From contig NZ_QEKY01000012.1 in assembly GCF_003096695.1 (NCBI RefSeq), positions 1-64,000 of the forward strand: a DNA stretch of 64,000 nucleotides, in the 5' to 3' direction. Every line of letters begins with the position of its first letter. Positions within the stretch are counted from its first letter, which is position 1. The position numbers and the translations under genes are program-made. Positions 2,842 to 30,708 of this stretch are shown here, one piece after another. The DNA is from Porphyromonas loveana (GTDB lineage: Bacteria > Bacteroidota > Bacteroidia > Bacteroidales > Porphyromonadaceae). The notes beneath the pieces were generated by a model. The model was given only the letters and a program-made list of their open reading frames with translations, searched no databases and was not told where the DNA came from.

Positions 2842-4104
2842 ATGAGATTTTTTGACAGAGACCGCTGGGTCGAGATTTGGCACACCATTCGGAGCAATCG
2901 CCGACGTAGTCTGGCTACGGCCTTCGGAGTATTCTGGGGTATTTTCATGTTGGTGATCCTCACCAGCGTGGGGGCGGGCTTCAGTAATGGTATCCTGCGT
3001 GAGGTGTCGGGCATAGCTGCCAACTCGGTTTTCTATTGGACCAATACGACCTCCAAGCCCTATCAGGGGTTCCGAAGCGGACGCTATTGGGGTGCTACAA
3101 CGAGCGATCTGCAAGCTGTGCGTAGCCAAGTGCGCGAGGTGGAATACATCAGTCCCGTCATGTGGGCGAGACGTACTGATAATAATGTTGTCTTCGGAGA
3201 AAAGGCAGAGACGTTCAATGTAGTGGGGGCAGAGCCAGATTATTTTGAAATCAATCGCCTCAACGTGCTTCAAGGACGGAGCCTCAACGCTGTGGACAAT
3301 CAGCAGCAACGTAAAGTGTGTATGATCGGGAAAGAAGTGCGAGACAAGCTGTTTGCAGGCACCGATCCCGTCGGACAGGTCTTACGCGTCAACGGCCTTT
3401 ATTATCGGGTGATCGGTGTGGTTGAAGCCAAGAGCAACAATGTCAACATAGGATCGTCTCCGAAGAGTACCGTTTACATCTCTTATAGCGTATTGCAGCA
3501 ACTGGAGAATAGGGGCAATAAGGTGTACAATTTCGCTGTCAGTGCACATCCTACGGCTGATATGAAGCAGATGTTTGCGAAGATCGAGACCATCATTCGC
3601 TCACGCAACAACATAGCTCCGGACGATGACAAGGCTCTTTCCAAATTTGATATCTCGGCGCAGTTCCAACTGATGAATATGATCTTTACAGGCATCAACC
3701 TACTGGTATGGATAGTCGGCATCGGTACGCTACTCACAGGTATAGTGGGAGTGTCCAATATCATGCTCGTTACCGTCCGAGAGCGGACGCGAGAGATCGG
3801 TGTGCGTCGCGCACTGGGAGCCAAACCTCGCACGATCATCGGCCAGATTTTGAGCGAATCGCTCCTGCTGACGGCTCTGGCCGGACTTTCAGGGCTGATA
3901 CTCGGTGTGGGTGTGATGAGTGTAGTGGATACGATAACTGCACAGGCTTCTTCCGACGGTTTTTCCTTTATCAGTCCGCTGATACCCTTCGGTACGGCCA
4001 TGCTTTCCCTTTTTATCATCATAGCAGGAGGAATACTCGGCGGTATGCTGCCGGCCTATCGCGCTATCCAGATCAAGGCTATTGATGCCATCAGAGACGA
4101 ATAA
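2842..4104 (+). CDS. ABC transporter permease, MacB/FtsX family (second)
   Basis: A 420-residue paralogue of the preceding permease. It has the same order of parts: N-terminal span (about residues 20-45), periplasmic domain, then three C-terminal spans with the coupling loop RERTREIGVRRALGAKP. It begins 15 bases after the preceding stop. Two non-identical permeases behind one ATPase are common in Bacteroidota MacB-like operons and suggest a heterodimer. A start at 2842 gives the expected short cytosolic N-terminal helix (RFFDRDRWVEIW). The substrate is unknown. Confidence 0.92.
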   Translation: MRFFDRDRWVEIWHTIRSNRRRSLATAFGVFWGIFMLVILTSVGAGFSNGILREVSGIAANSVFYWTNTTSKPYQGFRSGRYWGATTSDLQAVRSQVREVEYISPVMWARRTDNNVVFGEKAETFNVVGAEPDYFEINRLNVLQGRSLNAVDNQQQRKVCMIGKEVRDKLFAGTDPVGQVLRVNGLYYRVIGVVEAKSNNVNIGSSPKSTVYISYSVLQQLENRGNKVYNFAVSAHPTADMKQMFAKIETIIRSRNNIAPDDDKALSKFDISAQFQLMNMIFTGINLLVWIVGIGTLLTGIVGVSNIMLVTVRERTREIGVRRALGAKPRTIIGQILSESLLLTALAGLSGLILGVGVMSVVDTITAQASSDGFSFISPLIPFGTAMLSLFIIIAGGILGGMLPAYRAIQIKAIDAIRDE

Positions 4105-4133
4105 ACGAATAACAAGAAATATAAAGAACCAAG

Positions 4134-5237
4134 ATGAAAAAGTATTTCAAAATCCTCCTCTGGGTGCTGTTTGGCATCGCAGTAATCGGAACCTTCACGT
4201 TCCTGTGGCAGAAATCCAAAGCCAAACCTAAGGATTATCAGATCGAAACGGTGACCAAGCTGGACACCCTCGAGAGTAAGACGGTTATCACGGGCACGGT
4301 GGAGCCGCGCGACGAGGTCCTTATCAAGCCGCAGATGAACGGTATCGTGGCAGAACTCTTGCATGAGGCCGGCGACATCGTGCAGAGTGGCGATGTGATC
4401 GCCCGTCTGACAGTCGTTCCCGAGATGATTCAACTCAGTCAGGCCGAGAGCCGTGTGCGCATTGCCGAGATCGGTTATGAGCAGGGCAAGGAGTCTTATG
4501 CCCGCAGCAAGGACCTCTTCGAGAAGTCGGTCATTGCTCGTGAGGAGTTTGAAGCGGCTGAGGCCAACTATGCCAAGATCAAAGAAGAGCTGGCTAATGC
4601 TCGCGAAGCCATGGAGATCGTGCAGAAAGGTGCGAGCAGTCGCTCCGCCAAGCAGAGCAATACGCTCGTGCGCAGTACGGTGACGGGTAAGATTCTGAAT
4701 ATACCTGTGAAGGTGGGTAATTCTGTCATTCAAGCTAATACGTTCAACGAAGGAACTACCATCGCATCAGTAGCCGACATGAACGATCTCATATTCGTCG
4801 GAAGGATAGACGAGACAGAGGTGGGTCGCATCCGAATGGGGTCGCCCATGCGTATCTCAGTGGGCGCACTCGGTAAGGAGACTTTCCCTGCCACGGTGGA
4901 GTACCTCGCTCCCAAAGGAACGGTGGAGAACGGTGCCGTACTCTTCGAAGTGAAGGCTTCGGTTCGCATCCCGGGGGAGCGTGTGATTCGTGCCGGCTAC
5001 AGTGCCAATGCGGAGATCGTGCTCGAAGGGGCTTATGGTGTGCCGGCAGTGCCTGAAGCTTGTATAGAATTTAGTGGTGATAGCACCTTCGTTCAGGTGG
5101 TGAAGAGTGAGAAGCCGTTGCAAACGGAGCGTCGCCAAGTGAAGACGGGTGTCTCCAACGGATCCAGTATCGAGATCAAAAGCGGACTGAAGGTGGGCGA
5201 AAAGGTACGTGGTATCGAAAAGGCAGAACAGAAATGA
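4134..5237 (+). CDS. Periplasmic adaptor (HlyD/MacA-type membrane fusion protein)
   Basis: A 367-residue adaptor linking the inner-membrane permeases to the TolC-like channel. It has an N-terminal membrane anchor (about residues 5-25), a biotinyl-lipoyl half (VEPRDEVLIKPQMNGIV), an alpha-helical hairpin (about 100-165) rich in Ala, Glu and Arg, the second lipoyl half, then beta-barrel and membrane-proximal domains. The product is anchored in the inner membrane with its bulk in the periplasm. Its stop codon overlaps the start of the next gene by four bases (ATGA at 5234-5237), so synthesis of adaptor and channel is probably coupled. Confidence 0.92.
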   Translation: MKKYFKILLWVLFGIAVIGTFTFLWQKSKAKPKDYQIETVTKLDTLESKTVITGTVEPRDEVLIKPQMNGIVAELLHEAGDIVQSGDVIARLTVVPEMIQLSQAESRVRIAEIGYEQGKESYARSKDLFEKSVIAREEFEAAEANYAKIKEELANAREAMEIVQKGASSRSAKQSNTLVRSTVTGKILNIPVKVGNSVIQANTFNEGTTIASVADMNDLIFVGRIDETEVGRIRMGSPMRISVGALGKETFPATVEYLAPKGTVENGAVLFEVKASVRIPGERVIRAGYSANAEIVLEGAYGVPAVPEACIEFSGDSTFVQVVKSEKPLQTERRQVKTGVSNGSSIEIKSGLKVGEKVRGIEKAEQK

Positions 5238-6601
5238 AACGGACAATCCTCCTGACGGCCGTGGCCGTCTTCACAGCACTGCCTACGCTTCGGGCGCAGA
5301 CCGAACCTGCAACAACGAGCATCCCGACATCTCCTCTCACGCTGGAGGACTGCATCCGGATAGCTAAGGAGCGAAACCTGAACCTGCGCATGCAGGAGAT
5401 CGAGCAGGCGGGGCGCACCATCAATCTCGATGCTGCACGCCACAGCTTCCTGCCTACGGTCAGCGCCGGAGTGGGACACAATTACAGCTTCGGTCGCTCC
5501 AAGGATAAGACGGGGGTGACGGTGGATCGCTCTTCGATGAATACGAACTTCAATGTGAGTGCATCTGTCGAGCTTTTTAGCGGCACACGCCGTCTGCACG
5601 ACCTCAAGCAGCAGCAGTTAAATGTTGCCGACGGAGAGGCTTTGCTGGAGAAAGCTCGAGAAGACCTCAGCTTGCGCGTAGCATCGTTGTACATCAATCT
5701 CCTCTTCAGACAAGAAATGACCCGCACGGCCGAGGCTCAGTTGGCACTTACAGTCGAACAACGCAATCGCACAGCCGAATTGGTACGTGTGGGCAAATGG
5801 GCAGAAGGGCGTCTCCTCGATATTGACGCTCAATTGGCCAAAGACGAACAGTTGCTCGTGCAGTACCGTTCCGAGGAAGAGTTGGCACGTCTCGATTTGG
5901 GTCAGGCACTCGAGTTTGACCAACCCGAAGGTATCACGGTCAAAGCTCCGGATACCGATGCGCTCGTGGCGGAGAGAATGGCTTCGCTTGTTTCTCCCGA
6001 TGAGATCTATCGAACAGCCGTTGCCATCAAGCCGGCCTTGCGTTCGGGCGAGTTGCAAATTGCCGCGGCTCGTGAAGGTTTGGCCTCGGCTCGTGCCGCC
6101 TACTTCCCAACGCTCAGCTTTGGAGCCGGATACAGCAACGGATACTTCCGCAATCTTGGCAAAGAGTACGCCGCACTCAATACCTCCTTTGCCGACCAAT
6201 GGAAGACCAACGGCAGCTACAGCGTCGGTCTCTCGCTCAATATCCCCATCTTCAATGCAATGCAGACGCAGGACCGTGTGCGCAACAGCCGTCTACAAGT
6301 GCGTGCAAGCGAACTTCGCCTGACCGAAGAGAAGAAGACGCTCTACAAGGAAATACGTCAGGCCTATAGCAATGCCGTCGCAGCGGACAAAGCCATTTCG
6401 GCTGCGCGTAATAGTACTGCTGCTACCCTCCGAGCATACGAATATGCCCGTGACAGCTTCGAGGCGGGACGTCTGTCGGCTTATGAATATGCCGAAGCCA
6501 AGACCAAATACGCTCTGAGTCAGGTGGAAGAAATCCGAGCCAAGTACGACTTCATCTACAAAGCCAAAGTCCTCGACTTCTATCGCGGCATCGACTTCTG
6601 A
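5234..6601 (+). CDS. TolC-family outer membrane efflux protein
   Basis: A 455-residue outer-membrane factor with a signal peptide (about residues 1-21, ending LRAQ). Two repeated halves each start with the OEP pattern LTLEDCIRIAKERNLNLR or a variant, and long helices alternate with short strand regions (for example SVGLSLNIPIFNAMQT in the second half). It completes a tripartite MacAB-TolC-type pump with the preceding ABC and HlyD genes. A small stem (6629-6644, CAAGTC/GACTTG) follows the stop but lacks a T-tract, so I do not call it a terminator. Confidence 0.92.
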   Translation: MKRTILLTAVAVFTALPTLRAQTEPATTSIPTSPLTLEDCIRIAKERNLNLRMQEIEQAGRTINLDAARHSFLPTVSAGVGHNYSFGRSKDKTGVTVDRSSMNTNFNVSASVELFSGTRRLHDLKQQQLNVADGEALLEKAREDLSLRVASLYINLLFRQEMTRTAEAQLALTVEQRNRTAELVRVGKWAEGRLLDIDAQLAKDEQLLVQYRSEEELARLDLGQALEFDQPEGITVKAPDTDALVAERMASLVSPDEIYRTAVAIKPALRSGELQIAAAREGLASARAAYFPTLSFGAGYSNGYFRNLGKEYAALNTSFADQWKTNGSYSVGLSLNIPIFNAMQTQDRVRNSRLQVRASELRLTEEKKTLYKEIRQAYSNAVAADKAISAARNSTAATLRAYEYARDSFEAGRLSAYEYAEAKTKYALSQVEEIRAKYDFIYKAKVLDFYRGIDF

Positions 6602-6736
6602 GTGTGTCGGCTGGATAGGTTCTAATACCAAGTCTCCGGACTTGTAAGTAGGAAGTCGTAAAAGCCCTCTTCGTAATGAAAAAATGATATTGGTTCTCTT
6701 CTCTCGAAAGATATGAATTTGAATCCTCCTTTTCCT

Positions 6737-6744
6737 TATATTTG
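6737..6744 (+). promoter_or_regulatory. -7 box of element copy 1
   Basis: TATATTTG matches TAnnTTTG and is followed by CACCG, as is the corresponding TACATTTG of copy 3. No well-spaced -33 box is present (a TTTG lies only 15 bases upstream). It points at the short ORF and hairpin that follow. Confidence 0.45.
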
Positions 6745-6773
6745 CACCGTAAATAAATGACTAAATGATCGTA

Positions 6774-6860
6774 ATGACGAATAACAGACTTGTGAATGTA
6801 ATCTGCCGCAATTGCCCTGCTCTCTTTCCTTTTTCTCTTGCTGTACAGCAAAGAGATTGA
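6774..6860 (+). CDS. Candidate short ORF of element copy 1 (28 aa)
   Basis: ATG to TGA encodes a 28-residue basic peptide starting MTNNRLVN with a core CPALFPFSL. The third copy encodes a similar core, YPTLFPFPL, after MRNNRSN, and the second a weaker VSPLFLSI. The ORF sits between a -7 box 30 bases upstream and a terminator-like hairpin 88 bases downstream. No clear Shine-Dalgarno is visible, which is usual here. It may be a peptide gene or simply a non-coding RNA. Similarity in DNA alone could also explain the shared core. Confidence 0.3.
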   Translation: MTNNRLVNVICRNCPALFPFSLAVQQRD

Positions 6861-6948
6861 GGTGTGTTGCGAGTAAAGTTGATAAGTGTTTATCTTCTAA
6901 TGGCAGATAGGATGGAATAAAGGCAGTTTGATATTGCTCAAAGCATAG

Positions 6949-6999
6949 AATCCCCGTTGTGTTCTTCCCTGAACGCAATGGGGATTTTCTTTTTTTTAT
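6949..6999 (+). terminator. Hairpin and T-tract ending element copy 1 transcript
   Basis: Arms 6949-6963 and 6972-6986 form 15 pairs (two G-U) with an 8-base loop, followed by a T-rich run to 6999. It looks like an intrinsic terminator for a transcript starting after the -7 box at 6737. Equivalent hairpins occur in copies 2 and 3 with paired substitutions. Confidence 0.65.
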
Positions 7000-7515
7000 T
7001 CACTTTAAATATCCTCTTGAAGAGCATTATCTTTATAAAGTTTACCTTCTAATCTTTATAAGTTTGAAGATGAGCTTTATGATTATTAGAAATGATTATT
7101 ATAAAAATTGTATGTAGAAATTATAAAGATTACTTTCCATAGCCGTAATTATTGCGTTTCATGTGTTCAAATCGCGTTTTTTGCCCTTTGTCTGCTCTCC
7201 GGCCAACCCTCAACAGGTCGCTTATTTAGAGAGAATCTAAATAGCTGGTCGATGTTGATAAGTTTTTTGGTGCATAAATTATCGCCGGAAGAGTTACATA
7301 GATTAACAGAGATTGGATTTTATTTGATTTCTTTCCTAATTTGGCTGAAGGGGGGCCAAGTCAAAAGTGTAAGTCCTTTGTGGAGAGAGGAAAAGTCTGC
7401 TGACAGACCGTTTTTTCGGAGTTTTCATCCTCGATTTACCCGTCGTGCAATATGAGTTTGCTTCTACGGATGGGCAAAAAAGAGGAGACATATAGCGCTA
7501 TAACGTTAGATGTCT

Positions 7516-7523
7516 TATCTTTG
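7516..7523 (+). promoter_or_regulatory. -7 box for the lipoprotein/uppS/bamA cluster
   Basis: TATCTTTG lies 21 bases before the ATG at 7545. It shows that the longer reading frame opening at 7452 is not the translated form, because its start would lie upstream of the transcript. No good -33 TTTG is visible. Confidence 0.6.
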
Positions 7524-7544
7524 TGCACTAAAATATCGCTAAGA

Positions 7545-8924
7545 ATGTGCTATAAACGATTCATCCCATGCCTCATCTTGGCATTACTAAGTCTTTGGGC
7601 AGGAATGTCTTTGACCTCTTGTTCTAGAGAGAAGGTCGATCTTGAGGACGTTAATGTCGTGGATTTGCAAATCCACCGTTTTGTGCTTTCGAGCAAAAAG
7701 GAGCCAGCTTTGTCTAGCGTTTTTTTCTCTATCGATCATAAGAATGGAACTATCATCAACAAGAAAGCTTTGCCATATGGCACTGTCCTGGACTCTGTGA
7801 TGATGCATATCTCTACTGCTACTTCCGCCAAGAAACTTCAGGTGGCCATTAACGATGGAGAGTATCACGATTGGCAGACAACGGATTCGCTTTGGCTGCG
7901 TGACTGCCATACGTTGCATCTGACTGTGACGGACGAGAGCGGAGAAATGACCAAGAATTATACAGTGACGCTCAATCACTATGATTACGAGCCCACCACT
8001 TTTGTTTGGAATCTGATGAGTGGGGTTGCATTGCCTGACCTTAATGCTACGTATGCTGATGTGGTGACCCATGGTGACAAGGCCTATTTGGTCGCTGTAG
8101 TGGGGGGCTCTACTGTGTTATATGCGACTGACAAGAATAACCCCATGCTTTGGTCGTTGCTGCCAACTTCGGGACTGACCGGAGCATGCAGGCAAATAGC
8201 CGTGGCAGAAGATGGGCGTGCATGGATACTGACGGAGGCCGGTAAACTGTATCAGAGTGATAACTTCGCACAATGGACGGAAGTGGCTCCCGGAGGCAAT
8301 GTGTCTGCTCTCTTGGGTGGCATGGTGTGGCCTCAGGGTAGTCACACGTTGGCTCTGCTGGGTGAGAAAGACGGCAAACTTTGCTTCGCTACCAACATAG
8401 ATGGGGTCTTCGCATGGCGTGAAGAAGCTCCCAAGTCTTTCCCTGTGCGCAACTTTAGTGCACAGCTCTATCGCTCCAATAACCATCCCATGCTGCGTGT
8501 TGTGGGGGGCGTTTCTCGTGCAGGAGAGGCGGTAGACTCTGTATGGATATCCAGCAATGGAAACGATTGGATCGCTCTCAAACTCGACTCTGCTGCCATC
8601 CCTGCCTCTGTGGAGAAGGGTGCTTTGGTGGCGACATCTTCGGACGGTAATCTCTACTACTATGCCACAGAATATCGCGAAGGTGTGAAACGGCTTGCCG
8701 TATCTTATTCGACCGACAAGGGCATAACATGGCGTAGGGGGGGGGCCGATGTGATGTTGCCCGCCAATCCTTTGTATGCCGGTGGTTATCCCCATTCTTT
8801 TGTCTGTGCTTTCGGTAGTAGTACCTACAATATATATCAGTTTGGTGGCGTTAGCTCCTCGGGAACATTCTTTTCTGAGTTATGGAAAGGGGTCCTGAAA
8901 CTGAATGAAAACAACAGCAATTAG
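7545..8924 (+). CDS. DUF6242-like lipoprotein
   Basis: A 459-residue exported protein. The N terminus has a basic start, a hydrophobic core and the lipobox LTSC (Cys about residue 25), so it should be lipidated. An Ig-like region (about 30-140) precedes repeated Trp- and Gly-rich strands (LYQSDNFAQW, VWISSNGNDW, VSYSTDKGITW) of a beta-propeller/sialidase-like kind. This matches my memory of DUF6242 proteins. I chose the start at 7545 over 7452 because of the -7 box at 7516 and the signal peptide. A run of nine G (8737-8745) lies in its 3' part. Its end overlaps the next gene by 20 bases. Function unknown; the context suggests the envelope. Confidence 0.75.
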   Translation: MCYKRFIPCLILALLSLWAGMSLTSCSREKVDLEDVNVVDLQIHRFVLSSKKEPALSSVFFSIDHKNGTIINKKALPYGTVLDSVMMHISTATSAKKLQVAINDGEYHDWQTTDSLWLRDCHTLHLTVTDESGEMTKNYTVTLNHYDYEPTTFVWNLMSGVALPDLNATYADVVTHGDKAYLVAVVGGSTVLYATDKNNPMLWSLLPTSGLTGACRQIAVAEDGRAWILTEAGKLYQSDNFAQWTEVAPGGNVSALLGGMVWPQGSHTLALLGEKDGKLCFATNIDGVFAWREEAPKSFPVRNFSAQLYRSNNHPMLRVVGGVSRAGEAVDSVWISSNGNDWIALKLDSAAIPASVEKGALVATSSDGNLYYYATEYREGVKRLAVSYSTDKGITWRRGGADVMLPANPLYAGGYPHSFVCAFGSSTYNIYQFGGVSSSGTFFSELWKGVLKLNENNSN

Positions 8925-9621
8925 GAAGACGAATCATGTGGCACGCCTCTGTGTCCTTATGGTGTTGTGTGCCTTCTGCGGTGGGCGAGCTGTTGCTCAA
9001 GACTACCTCTACGAAATAGGTGGGGGTCTTGGCGTAGCGCAATACTACGGAGATGCCAATAGAGGGCTGCTCGGCTCAACGGGCTTCGGCTTGGAGGCTT
9101 TCGGGCGGTACAATCATAACTTCCGTTGGGCGTTTAGTGCCATCCTTGACTGGCGCTCTCTCAGCGGAAACTCGACTCATGTGGGGAATGTATTCCCCGG
9201 TGCTGCTCAGGCAGATTTTAGGGCGAGTCTGACTCAGCTGCATGTGCGAGCAGAGTTCAACTTCGTCCCATATAGTGATGGCTATAAATATTTGGGTACT
9301 GCTCGTTTGTCCCCTTATCTGACGGCGGGTATCTCTATGGGGATGGCCTCCGGAACCAAAGGTTCGGCCTTTGCACCCGGTATCACAGGTGGAGTGGGGG
9401 TGAAGTACAAGCTCAAGCGCCGCCTCAACATCGGTGTGGAGTATGCTTTCACCGGATTGCTGACGGATGCACTCGATGCTCTTACAGAACAGAGTGCATG
9501 GTTGAACAATCCTTATCAGGTCAATGACTCATGGCTCAAAAATAGAGATGCTACAGGAGCATTGATGGTAAGGCTGACGTATGACTTTGGTCTGCGTAAG
9601 AGCAATTGCAATAAACGATGA
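8905..9621 (+). CDS. DUF6089-like outer membrane beta-barrel protein
   Basis: A 238-residue protein with a signal peptide (about residues 1-32, ending GRAVAQ) and alternating aromatic-rich strands (YEIGGGLGVAQYYGD, GVGVKYKLKRRLNIGVEYAF) ending in a strand before the C terminus. The pattern and length fit the DUF6089 small barrels that sit upstream of uppS and bamA in Bacteroidota. It starts inside the end of the preceding lipoprotein gene (20-base overlap in another frame), which suggests coupled expression. It should lie in the outer membrane. The specific role is unknown. Confidence 0.75.
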   Translation: MKTTAIRKTNHVARLCVLMVLCAFCGGRAVAQDYLYEIGGGLGVAQYYGDANRGLLGSTGFGLEAFGRYNHNFRWAFSAILDWRSLSGNSTHVGNVFPGAAQADFRASLTQLHVRAEFNFVPYSDGYKYLGTARLSPYLTAGISMGMASGTKGSAFAPGITGGVGVKYKLKRRLNIGVEYAFTGLLTDALDALTEQSAWLNNPYQVNDSWLKNRDATGALMVRLTYDFGLRKSNCNKR

Positions 9622-9702
9622 CGGCACGAAAGCCTCCAATGAAGGAGAGCTCTCATGCTGCATCTTTAGATAGATTAAAGAAGATATAGACTGAAAGTCG
9701 GA

Positions 9703-10479
9703 ATGGCAAGTGATAACGAAAAGCTCCCGTCGATTGCGAGCGTCCCGAGGCACATAGCCCTCGTGATGGATGGCAATGGGCGTTGGGCCAAGATGCGTGG
9801 CAAAGAACGATACGAAGGCCATGCTGCCGGAGTGGATGCACTGCGTGTTGTGTTGCGTGCAGCTGCTGACTACGGTGTAGAATACTTGACTGCCTATACT
9901 TTCAGTACAGAGAATTGGAATCGTCCGGAAGAGGAGGTGCGTGCGCTCATGGGCTTGTTTGTCACAGCGATCATGAACGAGCTACTGGATCTCATGGAAA
10001 ATAATGTACGTCTTCTTGCCATCGGCGACTTTGACCGACTGCCGGAAGACGTTCGCACTTCATTAGAGCAAGGTATCCGCAAGACCGCCGGCAATACAGG
10101 GCTGTCTTTGGTTTTGGCCCTGAGCTATAGCTCGCGATGGGAACTGACTGATACTGCTCGCAGGCTGGCTGTGCAAGTACGTGACGGAGCCATCGCTCCG
10201 GAGGATATAGACGAGGCCTTGATCTCGGGGCAATTGTCCACGAGCGGCATCCCCGATCCCGATCTCTTTATCCGTACGGGAGGAGAGAAGCGTATTAGTA
10301 ATTTCCTGATGTGGCAGATGGCTTATACCGAATTGGTCTTTACCGATACGCTATGGCCGGATTTTAATGCCGACTGCTTGCGACAGGCCATCGAGGAGTA
10401 TTCTTCCAGAGAGCGTCGCTTCGGTAAGACAAGTGAGCAGATCGCTCTCTCCGGAACAAACAACAAATTGAATCTCTGA
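9703..10479 (+). CDS. uppS: Isoprenyl transferase (undecaprenyl diphosphate synthase)
   Basis: A 258-residue cis-prenyltransferase that condenses isopentenyl diphosphate with farnesyl diphosphate to give the C55 lipid carrier for peptidoglycan and glycan assembly. The catalytic Asp motif is VMDGNGRWA (about residues 21-29), followed by the HAAG region, the YTFSTENWNRP block and the C-terminal DLFIRTGGEKRISNF block, all standard. Length is usual. It is cytosolic and lies 6 bases before bamA, so both are probably on one transcript, a pairing common in Bacteroidota. Confidence 0.96.
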   Translation: MASDNEKLPSIASVPRHIALVMDGNGRWAKMRGKERYEGHAAGVDALRVVLRAAADYGVEYLTAYTFSTENWNRPEEEVRALMGLFVTAIMNELLDLMENNVRLLAIGDFDRLPEDVRTSLEQGIRKTAGNTGLSLVLALSYSSRWELTDTARRLAVQVRDGAIAPEDIDEALISGQLSTSGIPDPDLFIRTGGEKRISNFLMWQMAYTELVFTDTLWPDFNADCLRQAIEEYSSRERRFGKTSEQIALSGTNNKLNL

Positions 10480-10485
10480 CAGAGA

Positions 10486-13170
10486 ATGACTATGTGTAAA
10501 AAAATGATAGCCCTTGTGGCTCTCTTCTGTTCTTGTGTGGTGTCCCCTCTAGCGGCACAGTCTCAAGAAATGACGCTACCGGATACTATATACAATCCGG
10601 AAGTATCGTATGCCAAGCCTATTCATAAGACTATTGCTGCTATTGAGATCGAAGGGGTGAGAACCTTCGATGATTTTGTCTTGCGCAATCTTTCCGGTTT
10701 GGCAGTAGGAGACGAAGTGCTGATCCCCGGTGATGCCATGTCGGCTGCCGTCAATAGGATTATGCGCCAAGGCTACTTCTCCAATGCTCGCATTGTGGTG
10801 GATAAGTATGTGGGCTCTCAAGTTTATCTCCGGATCATCGTTACCGAACGTCCCCGTATCAGTCAGGTTACTTTCTCTGGCGTGAAGAAGTCCGAGCGCG
10901 AAGATTTAGAGTTGAGATCCGGTCTGAGACAGGGTACGCAGATGACTCGCAATAACGAGGACAAGGTGAAGCAGATCATCCAGAAGTACTTCAATGATAA
11001 AGGCTTCCGTGATGCCAAGGTGACGATTACACAAGAGCCGGATCTCTCGAAAGAAGGCTATGTGAACGTTGCTATCGCTATAGAGAAGAAGCATAAGACC
11101 AAGGTCAATGATATTTACTTCAGTGGCAACAACTCGCTCAGCGACCATACACTTCGTATGGCGATGAAGAATACCAATGCCAAGTTTAGTCTCAAGAAGC
11201 ATATCCGCTCTTCTTTCTTGAAGCTCTTCAGCTCGAAAAAGTTTGTAGAAGAAAGCTACCGTGAAGACTTGACACGCCTCGTAGAGAAATATCAAGAGTA
11301 TGGCTTCCGTGATGCCGAGGTGATAGCTGATAGCGTGGTGAGGACTCCTGACGGTAAGCGTGTGAACATCTATCTCAATATAGATGAGGGACAGAAGTAC
11401 TATATCAAAGACATTAACTTTGTCGGTAATTCACAATACCCTGCCGAGTATTTGGACAGAGTGCTTGGCATCAAGTCGGGGGATGTGTACAATCAGAGAC
11501 GTTTGGCCAAACGGTTGAATGAGGATGAGGACGCCGTCGGCAATCTGTACTATAATAATGGATACATCTTTGCTTGGGTGGATCCTGTGGAGACCAATGT
11601 GGTGGGTGATTCAGTTTCGCTTGACATCCGTATCGCAGAGGGTAAGCCTGCCAACATCAATAAAGTGATTATCAAAGGCAATACAGTTGTTTATGATGAA
11701 GTCGTACGCCGCGAACTATATACCAAGCCGGGCCAGCTCTTTAGTCGTGAAGATATTATCAACTCAATTCGTCTGATCAATCAGCTCGGACACTTCGATG
11801 CCGAGAAATCAGTCCCGCGCCCGATTCCTAACCAAGAGTCAGGTACGGTGGATATAGAGTATGACTTGGTGCCTCGTAGTAGTGATCAGTTGGAGCTTTC
11901 GATGGGTTGGAGCCAATCCGGACTCTTATTTAGGGGGGCTATCAAATTTACCAACTTCTCTGTTGGTAATCTGTTACATCCTTCCATGTATAAGAAAGGG
12001 ATTATCCCGCAAGGAGATGGACAGACCCTTTCGCTGAGCGCTCAGACCAATGGTAAGTACTACCAGCAGTACAGTATCTCGTTCATGGATCCTTGGTTTG
12101 GTGGTAAACGTCCGGATATGTTCAGTGTTAGTGCATTCTATTCGAAGACTACGGCTATTGATTCCAAGTTCTACAATAGCAATGCCAGCAACTATTACAA
12201 CGCTTACTACAATAGCTACTATAATAACTATAACAGCTATTATAATGGTATGGGTAACTATGCCAGTGATCTCTATACCCAAGCCAGTGACCCTGACAAG
12301 TCGTTGCAGATGCTTGGAGCCTCTATTGGCTACGGTAAACGACTTACATGGCCTGACAACTGGTTCCAGATCTATGCTTCTCTGAACTATACGTACTACA
12401 AGTTGCGTAACTGGAGCTACAATACTTTCCAAAACTTTCACCACGGATCGGCCAACGATCTGAATCTCGAATTGCGTTTGTCTCGTACCTCCATTGACAA
12501 TCCCATCTATACGCGTAGCGGATCAGACTTCATGGTATCGGTAGCAGCGACACTTCCGTACTCTCTTTGGGATAATCTGGATTATGCCAGTTCAACGTTG
12601 AACGTGAGCGATCGTTATCGTTTTATTGAGTACCACAAGTGGAAGTTCAGAGGCCGTGTCTTCACGCCGTTGATTAACCCTGCAACGCATAAATACGCTC
12701 CTGTGCTCATGGGACGTGTGGAAGGAGCTATTCTGGGTTCTTACAACTTGAATAAGAAATCGCCTTTTGGTACTTTCTATATGGGTGGTGACGGTATGTC
12801 CAGTTATTACGGTGGCTATATGAATGAGACCATCGGTCTACGTGGGTACAAAAATGGTACCATTGCCGGTAACAACTATGACTATGCGTATGCCTATATG
12901 CGCCTTTCTATGGAGTTACGCTTCCCCATCCTCTTTGAAAACTCCTTCAATGCTTGGGTGTTGGCCTTTGCTGAAGCTGGTAATGCATGGCGCAATATCG
13001 ATAACTACAATCCCTTCAACCTTAAGCGTTCTGCTGGCGTGGGTTTGCGTGTGACGCTGCCGATGGTAGGAATGCTAGGTATTGATTGGGGATATGGTTT
13101 TGACCGTCCAGATAATTCTACCGTGCGTGGTGGTAGCAACATCCATTTTGTCCTCGGACAAGAAATTTGA
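10486..13170 (+). CDS. bamA: Outer membrane assembly factor BamA (Omp85)
   Basis: An 894-residue Omp85 protein that inserts beta-barrels into the outer membrane. A signal peptide (about residues 1-24) precedes five POTRA repeats (about 45-450), then a 16-strand barrel. Barrel segment FGGKRPDMFSVSAFYS and the late GLRGYKNGTIAGNNY (the position of the family's VRGF/Y motif) are visible. The last residues form a closing strand ending with a hydrophobic residue (HFVLGQEI). A Tyr/Asn-rich insertion (about 565-600, encoded near 12170-12270) probably forms a surface loop. An alternative start at 10492 would remove two residues. Two Skp-type chaperone genes follow. Confidence 0.96.
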   Translation: MTMCKKMIALVALFCSCVVSPLAAQSQEMTLPDTIYNPEVSYAKPIHKTIAAIEIEGVRTFDDFVLRNLSGLAVGDEVLIPGDAMSAAVNRIMRQGYFSNARIVVDKYVGSQVYLRIIVTERPRISQVTFSGVKKSEREDLELRSGLRQGTQMTRNNEDKVKQIIQKYFNDKGFRDAKVTITQEPDLSKEGYVNVAIAIEKKHKTKVNDIYFSGNNSLSDHTLRMAMKNTNAKFSLKKHIRSSFLKLFSSKKFVEESYREDLTRLVEKYQEYGFRDAEVIADSVVRTPDGKRVNIYLNIDEGQKYYIKDINFVGNSQYPAEYLDRVLGIKSGDVYNQRRLAKRLNEDEDAVGNLYYNNGYIFAWVDPVETNVVGDSVSLDIRIAEGKPANINKVIIKGNTVVYDEVVRRELYTKPGQLFSREDIINSIRLINQLGHFDAEKSVPRPIPNQESGTVDIEYDLVPRSSDQLELSMGWSQSGLLFRGAIKFTNFSVGNLLHPSMYKKGIIPQGDGQTLSLSAQTNGKYYQQYSISFMDPWFGGKRPDMFSVSAFYSKTTAIDSKFYNSNASNYYNAYYNSYYNNYNSYYNGMGNYASDLYTQASDPDKSLQMLGASIGYGKRLTWPDNWFQIYASLNYTYYKLRNWSYNTFQNFHHGSANDLNLELRLSRTSIDNPIYTRSGSDFMVSVAATLPYSLWDNLDYASSTLNVSDRYRFIEYHKWKFRGRVFTPLINPATHKYAPVLMGRVEGAILGSYNLNKKSPFGTFYMGGDGMSSYYGGYMNETIGLRGYKNGTIAGNNYDYAYAYMRLSMELRFPILFENSFNAWVLAFAEAGNAWRNIDNYNPFNLKRSAGVGLRVTLPMVGMLGIDWGYGFDRPDNSTVRGGSNIHFVLGQEI

Positions 13171-26670: not shown

Positions 26671-26883
26671 AGTTCCCGTTGATTTTCAGCTCGTAATTTT
26701 GAAAGGCTTGTCCCGTTCCTCTAAATGCGTCTGGACGGGTTAAAAAAGATGAAGTCTTGTTGGCCTCGTATAAGGAGTTGGGTAGTTGTCGTTTAATGTG
26801 TTTCTTGGCATTGTATGACCAGACTAAAAAATGGCCTTGTCGCAAAAAAATCTCACAGTTTACATTGTCGATCAAAAAATATG

Positions 26884-26891
26884 TAAGTTTG
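26884..26891 (+). promoter_or_regulatory. -7 box of the peptide/GLPGLI/TonB-like operon
   Basis: TAAGTTTG lies 19 bases before the ATG at 26911. A possible -33 is weak (TTG at 26865-26867). A small palindrome AACAATTTTGTT (26899-26910) abuts the start codon. Confidence 0.55.
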
Positions 26892-26910: not shown

Positions 26911-27096
26911 ATGAAACTGAGAAAAATTATTCTTATGGCGGCCATTGCTTTTGCTTCCGTATTTGCTCTAGCCTCTAGCCCTTATGCTTATTACAGGACC
27001 TCTTGCGGGAAAACAGTGATTGGACATGAACAGAGTCCAGATGATATGAGTACATATACAATAAAGACGGTTGGATCAATTACTCTACCATGGTAA
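26911..27096 (+). CDS. Small exported peptide, 61 aa
   Basis: A 61-residue precursor with a signal peptide (MKLRKIILMAAIAFASVFA core, probable cleavage near residues 22-27) and a mature part of about 35 residues containing one Cys in YYRTSCGKTV and ending in TLPW. I do not recognise a family with confidence; it recalls the short exported peptides found near GLPGLI genes in Bacteroidota. It is supported as a gene by its own -7 box and by a 7-base overlap with the GLPGLI start (27090-27096), which suggests coupling. It could be a substrate, a signal or a structural peptide. Confidence 0.6.
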   Translation: MKLRKIILMAAIAFASVFALASSPYAYYRTSCGKTVIGHEQSPDDMSTYTIKTVGSITLPW

Positions 27097-27947
27097 AATT
27101 TGTATCGATTGCTAAGGAGCACTATGCTGTAGTGCTCCTTTCCTTTTTGTTGGTGAGTATCACCACCCCACTAGAAGCGCAGACGCATTCAACGGCTCCT
27201 TCGGGTGGAATGAAGTTGACCTATGACCAGAAGCCTATGGGGCAAGCATCTGTGGAGTGCATCTATCGCTATACACGGACCAATACAAAAAGAGAAAAAC
27301 AGTCCCAACGCCTTATCCTGCAGGCCAATAATAAACAGAGCAAATGCTATTCGCTCGCGAAATACAAGCTTGATTCAGTGGCTAACCTGAGAGGTCGGAA
27401 CAATATGAAACTAGCGGACTTCCAGATGTTGCTGACTTCTTATTCCGAAGCCTCCATAGGTGACCAGTCCTGCTACAACAGCCGCGAGTACCGCGACGCG
27501 AAGAAAGCCGAGCTTACGTCCTTCATTTATGAATTTGGCCCGCGCAACATCGAATACACTACTCCGTTGCCCACTGTGCGATGGAATACGGCTCACAAGG
27601 AGCGTGTCACCATCTGCGGCTACTCTTGTCGGAAAGCTACGGGCGAGTTTGGAGGTCGCAAGTGGACCGTATGGTACACGACCGACATCCCCGTGAGCAG
27701 CGGCCCTTGGAAGTTGGGCGACCTGCCCGGGCTCATCCTCCGTGCCTCAGATGCCACGGGGGAGCACAGCTTCGAGGCTGTGAGCATTCGCAATGCCAAG
27801 AGTACCATCTTCTGGGATGTATTCACGACGCAGAAGACTACGGCAGAGAAGGCGCGGCAGATGTCCCGAGACAAGCACAAGAATTATGAGCAGCATGAAA
27901 GAGGGTTCGGTGTCATCCAACCGAATTACACGCTGCTGGAGCCATAA
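27090..27947 (+). CDS. GLPGLI-family exported protein
   Basis: A 285-residue protein with an N-terminal signal segment (about residues 10-30, ending LEAQ). The family signature appears as LGDLPGLILRASD (about 212-224), preceded by the usual CGYSCRKATGEFGGRKWTVWYTTDIP region (about 170-196). GLPGLI proteins are common next to TonB-type barrels in Bacteroidota but lack an assigned activity that I know of. The first codon lies within the stop region of the peptide gene, in another frame. It is probably periplasmic or outer-membrane-associated. Confidence 0.85.
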   Translation: MVKFVSIAKEHYAVVLLSFLLVSITTPLEAQTHSTAPSGGMKLTYDQKPMGQASVECIYRYTRTNTKREKQSQRLILQANNKQSKCYSLAKYKLDSVANLRGRNNMKLADFQMLLTSYSEASIGDQSCYNSREYRDAKKAELTSFIYEFGPRNIEYTTPLPTVRWNTAHKERVTICGYSCRKATGEFGGRKWTVWYTTDIPVSSGPWKLGDLPGLILRASDATGEHSFEAVSIRNAKSTIFWDVFTTQKTTAEKARQMSRDKHKNYEQHERGFGVIQPNYTLLEP

Positions 27948-28004
27948 TACGCTAAGGTCGTCTCACTCAACATTGTCCGCCAAGATCGTATGACATCAGT
28001 CCTC

Positions 28005-30650
28005 ATGAAGCGGAAACTGACGATGCGCTATCTGCTCGTATCCCTGCTCATGCTGCTTACCGGCACAGCCCTTGCCCAGATGCGTATCGAGGGCAAGGTG
28101 CTGGATGCCGAGGACAGATTGCCGTTGGCCGGAGCATCCGTTCGCCTCATGAAAGAGGTGGAGGATGATCCCGATGGCGAACTTATCGCCTATGCCATAG
28201 CCGACGATAAGGGATACTACCGTCTGTCGGTGGAGTCGCGACCGCAAGTGGAGGGCAAGTATCGGCTTGAGTATCGTTGCTTGGGCTACGTGCCTTATAA
28301 AAGTGCTGTCCGATGGGAATCGGGCCAAAGCCGGATGTTGCGCCCCGATGTGCTCCTGTCGCCATCGGACACCAAGCTAAGAGAGGTGACAGTGCAGAGC
28401 ACTCCTGTCTATACTCGCGGCGATACCATTAAATATATGGCACACGCCTATAGCGATGCGGGCACACGCACATTGGCCGACTTGATAGCCCGCATACCGG
28501 GTTTGGAGGTGGAGACCGACGGCATTGTCCACTATCAGGGCAAGCCCATAAGTGAGCTATATATAGAAGGATTGTCCTCAGTGGGGGACAACTACGGGCT
28601 TGTGGTCAAAAATCTGGATGTACAAGCCGTCTCCGGTGTGGAAGTCCTACAGCGCCACCAGCGTGTGCGCGCCCTCAAAGACGTTGAGGTGCCGGATGCA
28701 GCTGCACTCAACATCCTGCTGAAAGACAAGAACAAGCTCCGCCCCACCGGGCAATGGGACATAGGTGGCGGATACGAGAGCGGTCTCTCCTACGACACCA
28801 ATCTCTATGCCATGCTCATAGGACGCAGGAGCCAGACGCTCCTGTCCGTCATGGCGGACAACTGTGGTCACCTGAGAGAAGAGGGCGGATTTATCCTCGC
28901 GCAGGGAGCGCAGATGCCCGAAGCAGGCAATCTCATCGGTGTCACAGAGGGGCGTTACGGACCGCCTTTGTCACAGAAGTACTATATGCAAGGCAATGAT
29001 CTCTCTACGGGTCTGATGCATGGGCGCAGAATAGGTCCTTATGGTATGTTGCGTCTCGGAGGGGGTTATACCTACCAGACTACTTCTCAAGAAGGATGGA
29101 TGGAGAATGTGTATATGGGCGGGGACGGAGCCGTGACCATATCGGAGCATGCGCTCTCCTCTCAAGAGCGACACAATGTAAAAGCCGAACTCCATTATCA
29201 GCACAATGCGGATTCGCTCTTTGTGGAGAATAACTTCTCTTTTCTGGGTTCGCACCACGACACACGAAACAATTTGTTCGCCGATGCACATTCGCTATAT
29301 GCTGTGAAGCGGCAGTTTGGCAGCTTTGACAACTTCTTTCACTATATCAAGAAGACAAAGAGCGGTAAGGTGCGCCGATTCATGACCAATCTCTTCGGCC
29401 GATCGCTCCCCACGGCGCACATCTCTGTACTGAAAGACGAAGGCGGTATAGCTCAGTTGATCGACGGATATGACTTCGGCGGCCAAGTCTCAGGAGGCTA
29501 TTCCGCTCGGATAAGCAAGCAGCTTTCCGTATCGGCAGCCACCGGGCTTGCAGCCGTGTACCGCGGGTACGGCCTGTCAGACATCGAAGAGGCTCCTCAG
29601 ACCATGCGGCACTACTCGGGTTATGACCTGAACGTATCCTTGGCTCCGGGTTTTACTTTCGAGGAAGGGGCGCTACGCATAGAGGGGCAGCTGCCACTGA
29701 CCTACTACGGCAGAGGATTTCGTGACAAGGTCGCAGTGGATTATCTCGTGAATAAGGTGCTGCCGGAGTGGAATCTGCTTCTGCGTTATGAGATGAACGG
29801 CTACTTCAGGTTCGACTGGACACTGGCATATACGGACAAAATGGACGTACCGGCTACGCTCATCACCCAACCGATAATAACGGACTACAACCAGATCGTG
29901 ACCCATACGGCAGGTGCCGTGGCGCGCAATAGGTCTTACGTGTCGAGGTTCGGCCTCCAATACTCAGATGTGATGAGTGGGGTGATGGCTTCTGCTACGA
30001 CAGCTGTTGTAAAGGACAAGGGCAACTTGATCCGAGACTTCGATGTTTCGCAGGGGCAGATAACCTACACGACGCAGTCCTATAGGTCGTCGGGGCTCTC
30101 GTGGAATAGTTCGAGCTTTCTCTCGTGGCGCATAAGACCGCTGAAAACCAAGCTCGACCTCTCGGGCAGGTACGCCTATTCGCAGACCGAAGCCATGCGT
30201 GCAGGTGTGATTTATCCCGTGGTATCGCACCGTTTTTCACTTAGGCCGTCTTTGCTTTTCACCCCGATCCGCTCTCTCTCGTGGGAGGCATCGGTCAGTT
30301 GGGGCTACACCAGGCTTTTCCATCAGTACGAGGAGGTGTCATATCGCTCGCAGCGACATGAAATGCGAGCGTCGAGCCGTCTCACGTGGCAGCTCCTGCC
30401 GCAGTGGGATTTCTTTACCTCTGCCGACTACATCCGTCTGGAGTTGCAGCCATCCGGCAGTCGTCACATATACTTTGCCGATGCAGGAACGCGCTATCGA
30501 TTGGGGCGTTACGAATTGTCGGCGACGGTGGACAATCTGTTTAATACGAAGAGTTACGAGACGGGTTATCAGATAGGAATGGATTCTTTCCATGCGTTCT
30601 ATCACCTACGCCCCCGTCGCTATTTGCTGACGTTCCGAATCTCCTTCTAA
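28005..30650 (+). CDS. TonB-receptor-like outer membrane protein with carboxypeptidase-regulatory domain
   Basis: An 881-residue outer-membrane protein. A signal peptide (ending GTALAQ) is followed by a carboxypeptidase-regulatory-like beta-sandwich (about residues 25-115), a plug-like region (about 120-245, LADLIARIPGLEV and ISELYIEGLSS) and a long barrel ending RYLLTFRISF. A start at 28005 or 28023 gives a better signal peptide than the upstream ATG at 27990. It follows GLPGLI by 57 bases. It may import or export a ligand linked to the small peptide; that is inference. No canonical TonB box is obvious. Confidence 0.8.
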   Translation: MKRKLTMRYLLVSLLMLLTGTALAQMRIEGKVLDAEDRLPLAGASVRLMKEVEDDPDGELIAYAIADDKGYYRLSVESRPQVEGKYRLEYRCLGYVPYKSAVRWESGQSRMLRPDVLLSPSDTKLREVTVQSTPVYTRGDTIKYMAHAYSDAGTRTLADLIARIPGLEVETDGIVHYQGKPISELYIEGLSSVGDNYGLVVKNLDVQAVSGVEVLQRHQRVRALKDVEVPDAAALNILLKDKNKLRPTGQWDIGGGYESGLSYDTNLYAMLIGRRSQTLLSVMADNCGHLREEGGFILAQGAQMPEAGNLIGVTEGRYGPPLSQKYYMQGNDLSTGLMHGRRIGPYGMLRLGGGYTYQTTSQEGWMENVYMGGDGAVTISEHALSSQERHNVKAELHYQHNADSLFVENNFSFLGSHHDTRNNLFADAHSLYAVKRQFGSFDNFFHYIKKTKSGKVRRFMTNLFGRSLPTAHISVLKDEGGIAQLIDGYDFGGQVSGGYSARISKQLSVSAATGLAAVYRGYGLSDIEEAPQTMRHYSGYDLNVSLAPGFTFEEGALRIEGQLPLTYYGRGFRDKVAVDYLVNKVLPEWNLLLRYEMNGYFRFDWTLAYTDKMDVPATLITQPIITDYNQIVTHTAGAVARNRSYVSRFGLQYSDVMSGVMASATTAVVKDKGNLIRDFDVSQGQITYTTQSYRSSGLSWNSSSFLSWRIRPLKTKLDLSGRYAYSQTEAMRAGVIYPVVSHRFSLRPSLLFTPIRSLSWEASVSWGYTRLFHQYEEVSYRSQRHEMRASSRLTWQLLPQWDFFTSADYIRLELQPSGSRHIYFADAGTRYRLGRYELSATVDNLFNTKSYETGYQIGMDSFHAFYHLRPRRYLLTFRISF

Positions 30651-30668: not shown

Positions 30669-30708
30669 ACACAGTGTGGCCAAAAAGAGCTTTTTGGCCA
30701 CACTGTGT
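30669..30708. terminator. Near-perfect 40-nt palindrome, bidirectional terminator
   Basis: Arms 30669-30687 and 30690-30708 are perfectly complementary over 19 bases with only two central bases. It lies between two convergent genes. It lacks a long flanking T-tract, but the stem itself contains CTTTTTGG. Confidence 0.75.

Follow-up and report, generated by a model that had tools for sequence, protein, structure and literature searches.

Members of the GLPGLI family (TIGR01200; Porph_ging, PF09697) are spread over the Bacteroidota, often in multiple copies per genome, and the parts of the literature that we searched gave neither an assigned function for the family nor a link to small exported peptides. 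Two reports provide precedents for what such proteins and their neighbors might do. LolA2 and LolB2 of the flexirubin loci, LolA-fold proteins that would be dedicated to a single locus (PMC11885536), are a proposed precedent for a GLPGLI protein serving its own operon, and the Myxococcus barrel Oar is needed for secretion of PopC (PMC6434023), a precedent for export through a barrel of this type. Here, we analyze an operon of Porphyromonas loveana that joins a gene for a 61-amino acid exported peptide to a GLPGLI gene and an outer-membrane barrel gene, within a 64,000-nucleotide stretch (NZ_QEKY01000012.1, positions 1 to 64,000; hereafter the window). No description of a peptide–GLPGLI–barrel system was found in the literature searched. 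In our view, the set most likely accompanies small secreted peptides as a module made up of a carrier and a gate.

The three genes lie on the forward strand in the order peptide (26911-27096), GLPGLI (27090-27947, 285 amino acids) and barrel (27990-30650, 886 amino acids). As the original prediction had it, the peptide is encoded by a 61-codon open reading frame (ORF) with a signal peptide and one Cys that shares seven bases with the GLPGLI gene (ATGGTAA, 27090-27096, where the GLPGLI start overlaps the peptide stop), the barrel gene follows, and a 40-base palindrome closes the set. We infer from the overlap that translation of the peptide is coupled to that of GLPGLI. The peptide ORF was assigned from its reading frame and from a place and architecture common to other GLPGLI loci, one of which is a second, paralogous operon of P. 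loveana, where a 61-amino acid peptide carrying the segment IHTSCGVSI is again followed by GLPGLI and barrel genes. This genome has six GLPGLI genes, and another genome has up to 10.

The three genes recur as a set, and GLPGLI genes have small exported Cys peptides ahead of them far more often than other genes do. Our first survey covered 101 sources (the window, 20 stretches from the genus, four of them from the same genome, and 80 loci of named genomes) and counted exported small ORFs from -150 to +250 nt before each gene; such ORFs preceded 26 of 159 GLPGLI genes versus 12 of 463 other large ORFs. When the count was repeated on 21 more loci, the result was 10/36 versus 1/52, with three of the 10 pairs judged false by eye. 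Across 122 sources, 113 GLPGLI genes had 170 nt or more of free space upstream; on inspection by eye, 31 had a Sec-type Cys peptide ahead of them, four had a double-glycine (GG) Cys peptide, and two faced a lanthipeptide cluster. Near-duplicate loci (L066/L121, L151/L152 and L082/L085/L087) were kept in both the 26/159 survey and the 113-gene count. Pairs in L139, L123, L137 (751), L142, L187 (4156), L197 and L203 were discarded as false by eye, as was the 53-amino acid ORF of L111.

When 295 genomes of the order and 395 genomes of the class were scanned with a profile of mature peptides, eight rows from six distinct places came back, of which four were real and two (in G143 and G685) were judged to be chance matches. 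The real places are the two P. loveana loci, found in both runs, and one each in G255 and G159, and all four lie directly before GLPGLI and barrel genes. No real match lay away from GLPGLI; G159 alone was new to the profile, G255 carrying the L073 peptide, and the scan is a weak independent test. Distances between peptides correlate with distances between their GLPGLI proteins (r 0.75, n=21), and part of the correlation persists once barrel distance is removed (r 0.41, n=13, p 0.002), with shared ancestry as a confounder. In an orthologous pair from P. loveana and G006, peptides of 123 and 111 amino acids are 42% identical over ~100 amino acids and precede GLPGLI genes that are 51% identical.

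Two other arrangements were seen upstream of GLPGLI genes. In L211, from G006, a 70-amino acid signal-peptide ORF with no Cys and an Ile/Val-rich tail lies ~100 nt before the GLPGLI gene at 3572-4288 on the reverse strand, and in L109 and L111 a second exported protein of ~124 amino acids stands ahead of the Cys peptide (gaps of 277 and 375 before GLPGLI).

The canonical peptide is laid out as a signal peptide, a Y-x-x-T-x-C-G motif, T-V-D and a helix that ends in Cys-Gly. A model with the L073 peptide as first sequence of a 13-row alignment predicts a beta-beta-alpha mini-domain, with a pLDDT of 91-95 over the mature part, in which Cys29 lies between the two strands and the helix ends at Cys59. 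Seven Sec-type peptides gave no match over cut-off to Pfam or NCBIfam, and three more, compared with NCBIfam only, gave none, in a scan that also included one GG peptide and one 123-amino acid upstream protein. Foldseek found no match for the peptide in the PDB at E <= 0.001, which is not proof of a new fold. The window peptide has a signal-peptide-like start of about 21 residues, judged by eye, followed by a mature part beginning SSPYAYYRTSCGKTV; its sole Cys, residue 32, belongs to a TSCG motif read from the translation (residues 30-33; 26998-27009, forward strand). It thus presents a signal peptide and then Cys-Gly directly 5′ of GLPGLI. The TIGR04149 double-glycine leader had no match in it at E <= 1.

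A feature that the earlier reading of the operon overlooked lies just past the peptide stop. At 27114-27140 on the forward strand, starting 18 nt after the stop and within the codons of the GLPGLI signal peptide, a terminator-like hairpin with a perfect 12-bp stem is followed by the T-rich sequence TCCTTTTTG. Its folding energy is -20.4 kcal/mol (z -3.6), which none of 200 shuffles matched, making it a candidate attenuator or 3′ stabilizer between peptide and GLPGLI. Across loci, stems of 12 bp or longer come after 16 of the 32 peptide stops. The controls gave 11 of 142 for GLPGLI stops, 15 of 207 for other stops read in the same direction and 25 of 640 for dinucleotide shuffles (Mann-Whitney p no higher than 1.3e-6 against each control; a second, nearly identical L078 junction was removed). 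T-runs stand behind some of these stems and are absent behind others. This enrichment fits a peptide made in excess over its partners. In Fodinibius halophilus (L132, 4204-4530), GLPGLI is preceded by an exported Cys peptide and a hairpin of 13 bp.

The GLPGLI protein of the window is a clear family member, scoring 149.7 bits against TIGR01200 over residues 17-261, about three times the cut-off of 50, and matching PF22252 (E 1.7e-8) and PF09697. Its signal peptide is followed by Q31, and translation and alignment place the family motif, here DLPGLI, at 27720-27737 on the forward strand. Among solved folds, a structural model (66-row alignment, pLDDT 88.7, pTM 0.85) came closest to PNGase F-II, in its N-terminal domain (Z 16.5), followed by VioE, LolA (Z 9.6-10.4; 9.6 for 1iwl and 10.4 for 2w7q) and RseB/MucB (Z 8-9). 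From this model we predict that GLPGLI is a LolA-like periplasmic half-barrel; at the sequence level, the protein matched no LolA family in Pfam or NCBIfam.

The barrel is a regular companion: when the 93 large ORFs next to GLPGLI genes were compared with the window barrel, 87 matched at E <= 1e-5, a count that takes in the barrel itself. Its N-terminal CarboxypepD_reg-like domain scored 26.6 bits against PF13715 (E 6.2e-6), under the gathering score of 32.2, and relatives reached up to 39.3. The original prediction saw no obvious TonB box in this protein and took the absence to fit export or a structural role. Our alignments do not bear this out: a TonB-box-like segment, LREVTVQS (residues 130-137; 28377-28400, forward strand), lies before the predicted plug and takes the place of LKEVVVKA in relatives and of EVVV in SusC. 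Of its residues, E132 is the same in all 15 aligned relatives and V133 is conserved to at least 90%, and the barrel-family profile aligns from the N-terminal domain into the EVVV of a solved SusC homolog, 5t3r (E 2.9e-9). It is likely, judging from these sequences, that the barrel carries a putative TonB box, and the case for export that was built on its absence is not supported. Among six relatives, a single one matched the plug domain PF07715, with an E of 0.0028 that does not reach the cut-off, and the window barrel had no match to it at E <= 1. A peptide-pattern search of genome contigs for barrel relatives matched 14 stretches, none of which was a relative.

Other kinds of peptide occupy the same position before GLPGLI. 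Double-glycine Cys peptides stand before GLPGLI in four loci (L127, L145, L192 and L196), three of them over the TIGR04149 cut-off. L145, from Alistipes muris (4778-10691), encodes a GG Cys peptide, a 17-bp hairpin, GLPGLI, a barrel, a C39-VKOR-thioredoxin protein and a second GG peptide, and would make a good model system; L192 likewise has a C39-VKOR-thioredoxin protein, together with several GG peptides, two GLPGLI genes and a barrel. In 119 genomes of the order, scanning for TIGR04149 gave 15 places, three of them within ~200 nt of a GLPGLI match start: one in G073, which is L196, and two in G084, where GG peptides precede two GLPGLI genes of a tandem array. The same scan of 395 genomes of the class found 37 places, 30 of which were examined as loci. 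In two Chryseobacterium species (L122, 474-4914, and L149), GLPGLI is divergent from LanC and a LanB split into N- and C-terminal genes. The lanthipeptide domains were verified in L122, where the precursor scored as a lanthipeptide leader, and L149 was assigned only from the order of its genes and the similarity of their protein starts. No LanB or LanC gene adjoins the window peptide, whose operon is flanked by genes for a TPR protein and an S41 protease. Elsewhere, in the array of L187, a GG-leader Cys peptide runs in frame into a GLPGLI protein of 326 amino acids (8181-9161, reverse strand), and the next GLPGLI gene has a separate GG peptide just ahead of it.

On the strength of gene order, hairpin enrichment, predicted folds and family links, all obtained by computation, we tentatively propose that the operon is a peptide-cargo unit, a reading that we hold somewhat short of probable. 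Its first gene would supply a small Cys-bearing peptide that is exported by Sec to the periplasm, and the hairpin past the peptide stop may limit read-through or stabilize the peptide message so that peptide exceeds its partners. GLPGLI, as a LolA-like half-barrel in the periplasm, would bind the peptide and carry or protect it, and the SusC-related barrel, with its predicted plug and TonB-box segment, would be the gate that lets the peptide out across the outer membrane. In relatives, the cargo could be a Sec-type beta-beta-alpha peptide with two Cys, a double-glycine peptide or possibly a lanthipeptide, with GLPGLI and barrel as the constant companions across cargo types. The broader proposal, that GLPGLI and barrel make up an undescribed Bacteroidota export module for ribosomal peptides, in which a LolA-fold carrier hands Sec-delivered or C39/double-glycine-delivered Cys peptides to a TonB-plugged barrel for release outside the cell, is doubtful. 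That the peptide is exported or matured by this set, one of the roles originally suggested, remains the best-supported reading, on account of the recurrent set and of the GG peptides and lanthipeptides in the same place, and no longer because of a missing TonB box.

Several observations weigh against this proposal. Seventy-six of the 113 GLPGLI genes with upstream room show no peptide recognizable by eye, and because about two thirds thus lack one, the peptide is an accessory client of GLPGLI and not an obligate part. Of the 30 class loci examined for TIGR04149, 28 have no GLPGLI nearby (the remaining two being those of G084), so that only a subset of GG peptides, and not the class as a whole, is tied to GLPGLI. 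The original prediction had named a peptide broken in most strains beside an intact GLPGLI gene as the pattern that would refute it. This pattern occurs between the sister species G008 and G006, which weakens the prediction: at one array, G008 has a 93-amino acid peptide of which no counterpart was found in G006, and the GLPGLI genes of the two share 65-89% identity. Elsewhere, between P. loveana and G006, the pair is kept. The window peptide itself is a weak example. It has no second Cys, the helix-end Cys of canonical members, and because of this we do not file it as a two-Cys family member; a profile built without it found it at E 0.0024 over its full length and at E 0.44 over the mature part. 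In a search of 26 genomes from the genus, its one accepted match is itself, the 15 other listed matches (E 0.11-0.95) being taken as chance. A frameshift was considered as the cause of the lost Cys, and by eye the other frames hold no helix-Cys continuation. We therefore treat the peptide as a possibly degenerate occupant of the position that the family holds, in a copy of the operon that is presumed to be active. Lastly, a TonB-box segment fits import as well as export.

This last point bears on two alternatives in which the barrel takes up its substrate, and over which, as over immunity, export is preferred only modestly. An antibacterial or signaling peptide might be released elsewhere, with GLPGLI as its periplasmic immunity or binding protein and the barrel as a TonB-dependent receptor for re-uptake. 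The conserved TonB-box segment would suit such self-protection, as would the tandem duplication of peptide–GLPGLI pairs in L086, which resembles that of effector-immunity pairs, and the lanthipeptide clusters that adjoin GLPGLI in the two Chryseobacterium loci; GLPGLI genes with no peptide would then be orphan immunity. Yet an immunity pair needs no barrel in its operon, where one is usually present, and the scanned peptides match no toxin-like family; we consider this explanation unlikely. The SusC-type N-terminal domain and TonB-box segment would equally serve a secreted hemophore- or metallophore-like peptide that returns loaded through the barrel to GLPGLI, and the invariant Cys of the peptide family is a further point in favor of this reading; with two Cys only and no common His/Met pattern in the peptide alignment, however, capture of a nutrient or metal appears quite unlikely.

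The remaining alternatives concern the peptide gene itself. It could be a leader ORF that does no more than use the hairpin to control read-through into GLPGLI, its product having no role, and both the overlap with the next gene and the terminator-like hairpin with its T-run 18 nt past the stop are what attenuation would lead one to expect. Relatives, however, retain the signal peptide, the Cys framework and a confidently predicted fold, the orthologous pair has kept 42% identity over ~100 amino acids, and double-glycine peptides fill the same position, leaving a leader as improbable as metal capture. The window copy might instead be a decayed remnant, its peptide having lost the C-terminal half while the operon drifts. 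The missing second Cys, the lack of a close homolog in the 25 other genomes of the genus and a shortened junction that places the hairpin in the GLPGLI signal-peptide codons would all fit decay, but reading frame, signal peptide, TSCG motif, hairpin, GLPGLI and barrel are all intact, and we regard this as very improbable.

The borders of the operon are marked by two further elements. Twenty nucleotides 5′ of the peptide ATG lies a -7 box of the Bacteroidota promoter type, TAAGTTTG (26884-26891, forward strand), located with the search pattern TANNTTTG. The box that was predicted ahead of the operon is present; its pattern occurs 51 times in the window versus 24.7 expected, so that it is weak evidence by itself, and a -33 TTG at 19-nt spacing is not present before it, the nearest TTG (26865-26867) being spaced by 16 nt. 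The closing palindrome (30669-30708) has two perfect 19-nt arms and a 2-nt spacer, folds at -34.9 kcal/mol (z -7.2) and forms the convergent end shared with the S41 protease gene. Synteny with G006 and G008, where the S41 gene alone is common, is uninformative on the operon.

Set beside described systems, the locus resembles each in part. The window protein belongs to the GLPGLI family by its TIGR01200 score, and no link of that family to small exported peptides was found in the literature searched; a recurrent client of small exported Cys peptides turns this orphan family into a testable system. It matches the N-terminal domain of PNGase F-II (PF22252; 4r4x, 4r4z, 7zgn) both in Pfam and in predicted fold, but no glycosidase domain follows. 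Its predicted fold is also that of the LolA, LolB and RseB half-barrels (Z 8-10), whereas the cargo proposed for it is a peptide and not an acylated lipoprotein or pigment. Double-glycine peptides of the TIGR04149 kind neighbor GLPGLI operons in four loci, three of which pass the cut-off, and class I lanthipeptide clusters do so in two; the window peptide differs from both in having a Sec signal, with neither a GG leader nor adjoining LanB/LanC. The barrel, by its family profile, aligns with a homolog of the SusC-type TonB-dependent transporters through the CarboxypepD_reg-like domain into the EVVV of that homolog, and is set apart from these and from Oar by its partners, GLPGLI and a peptide; if it does export that peptide, it would constitute a Gram-negative route of peptide release that operates without a TolC-type channel.

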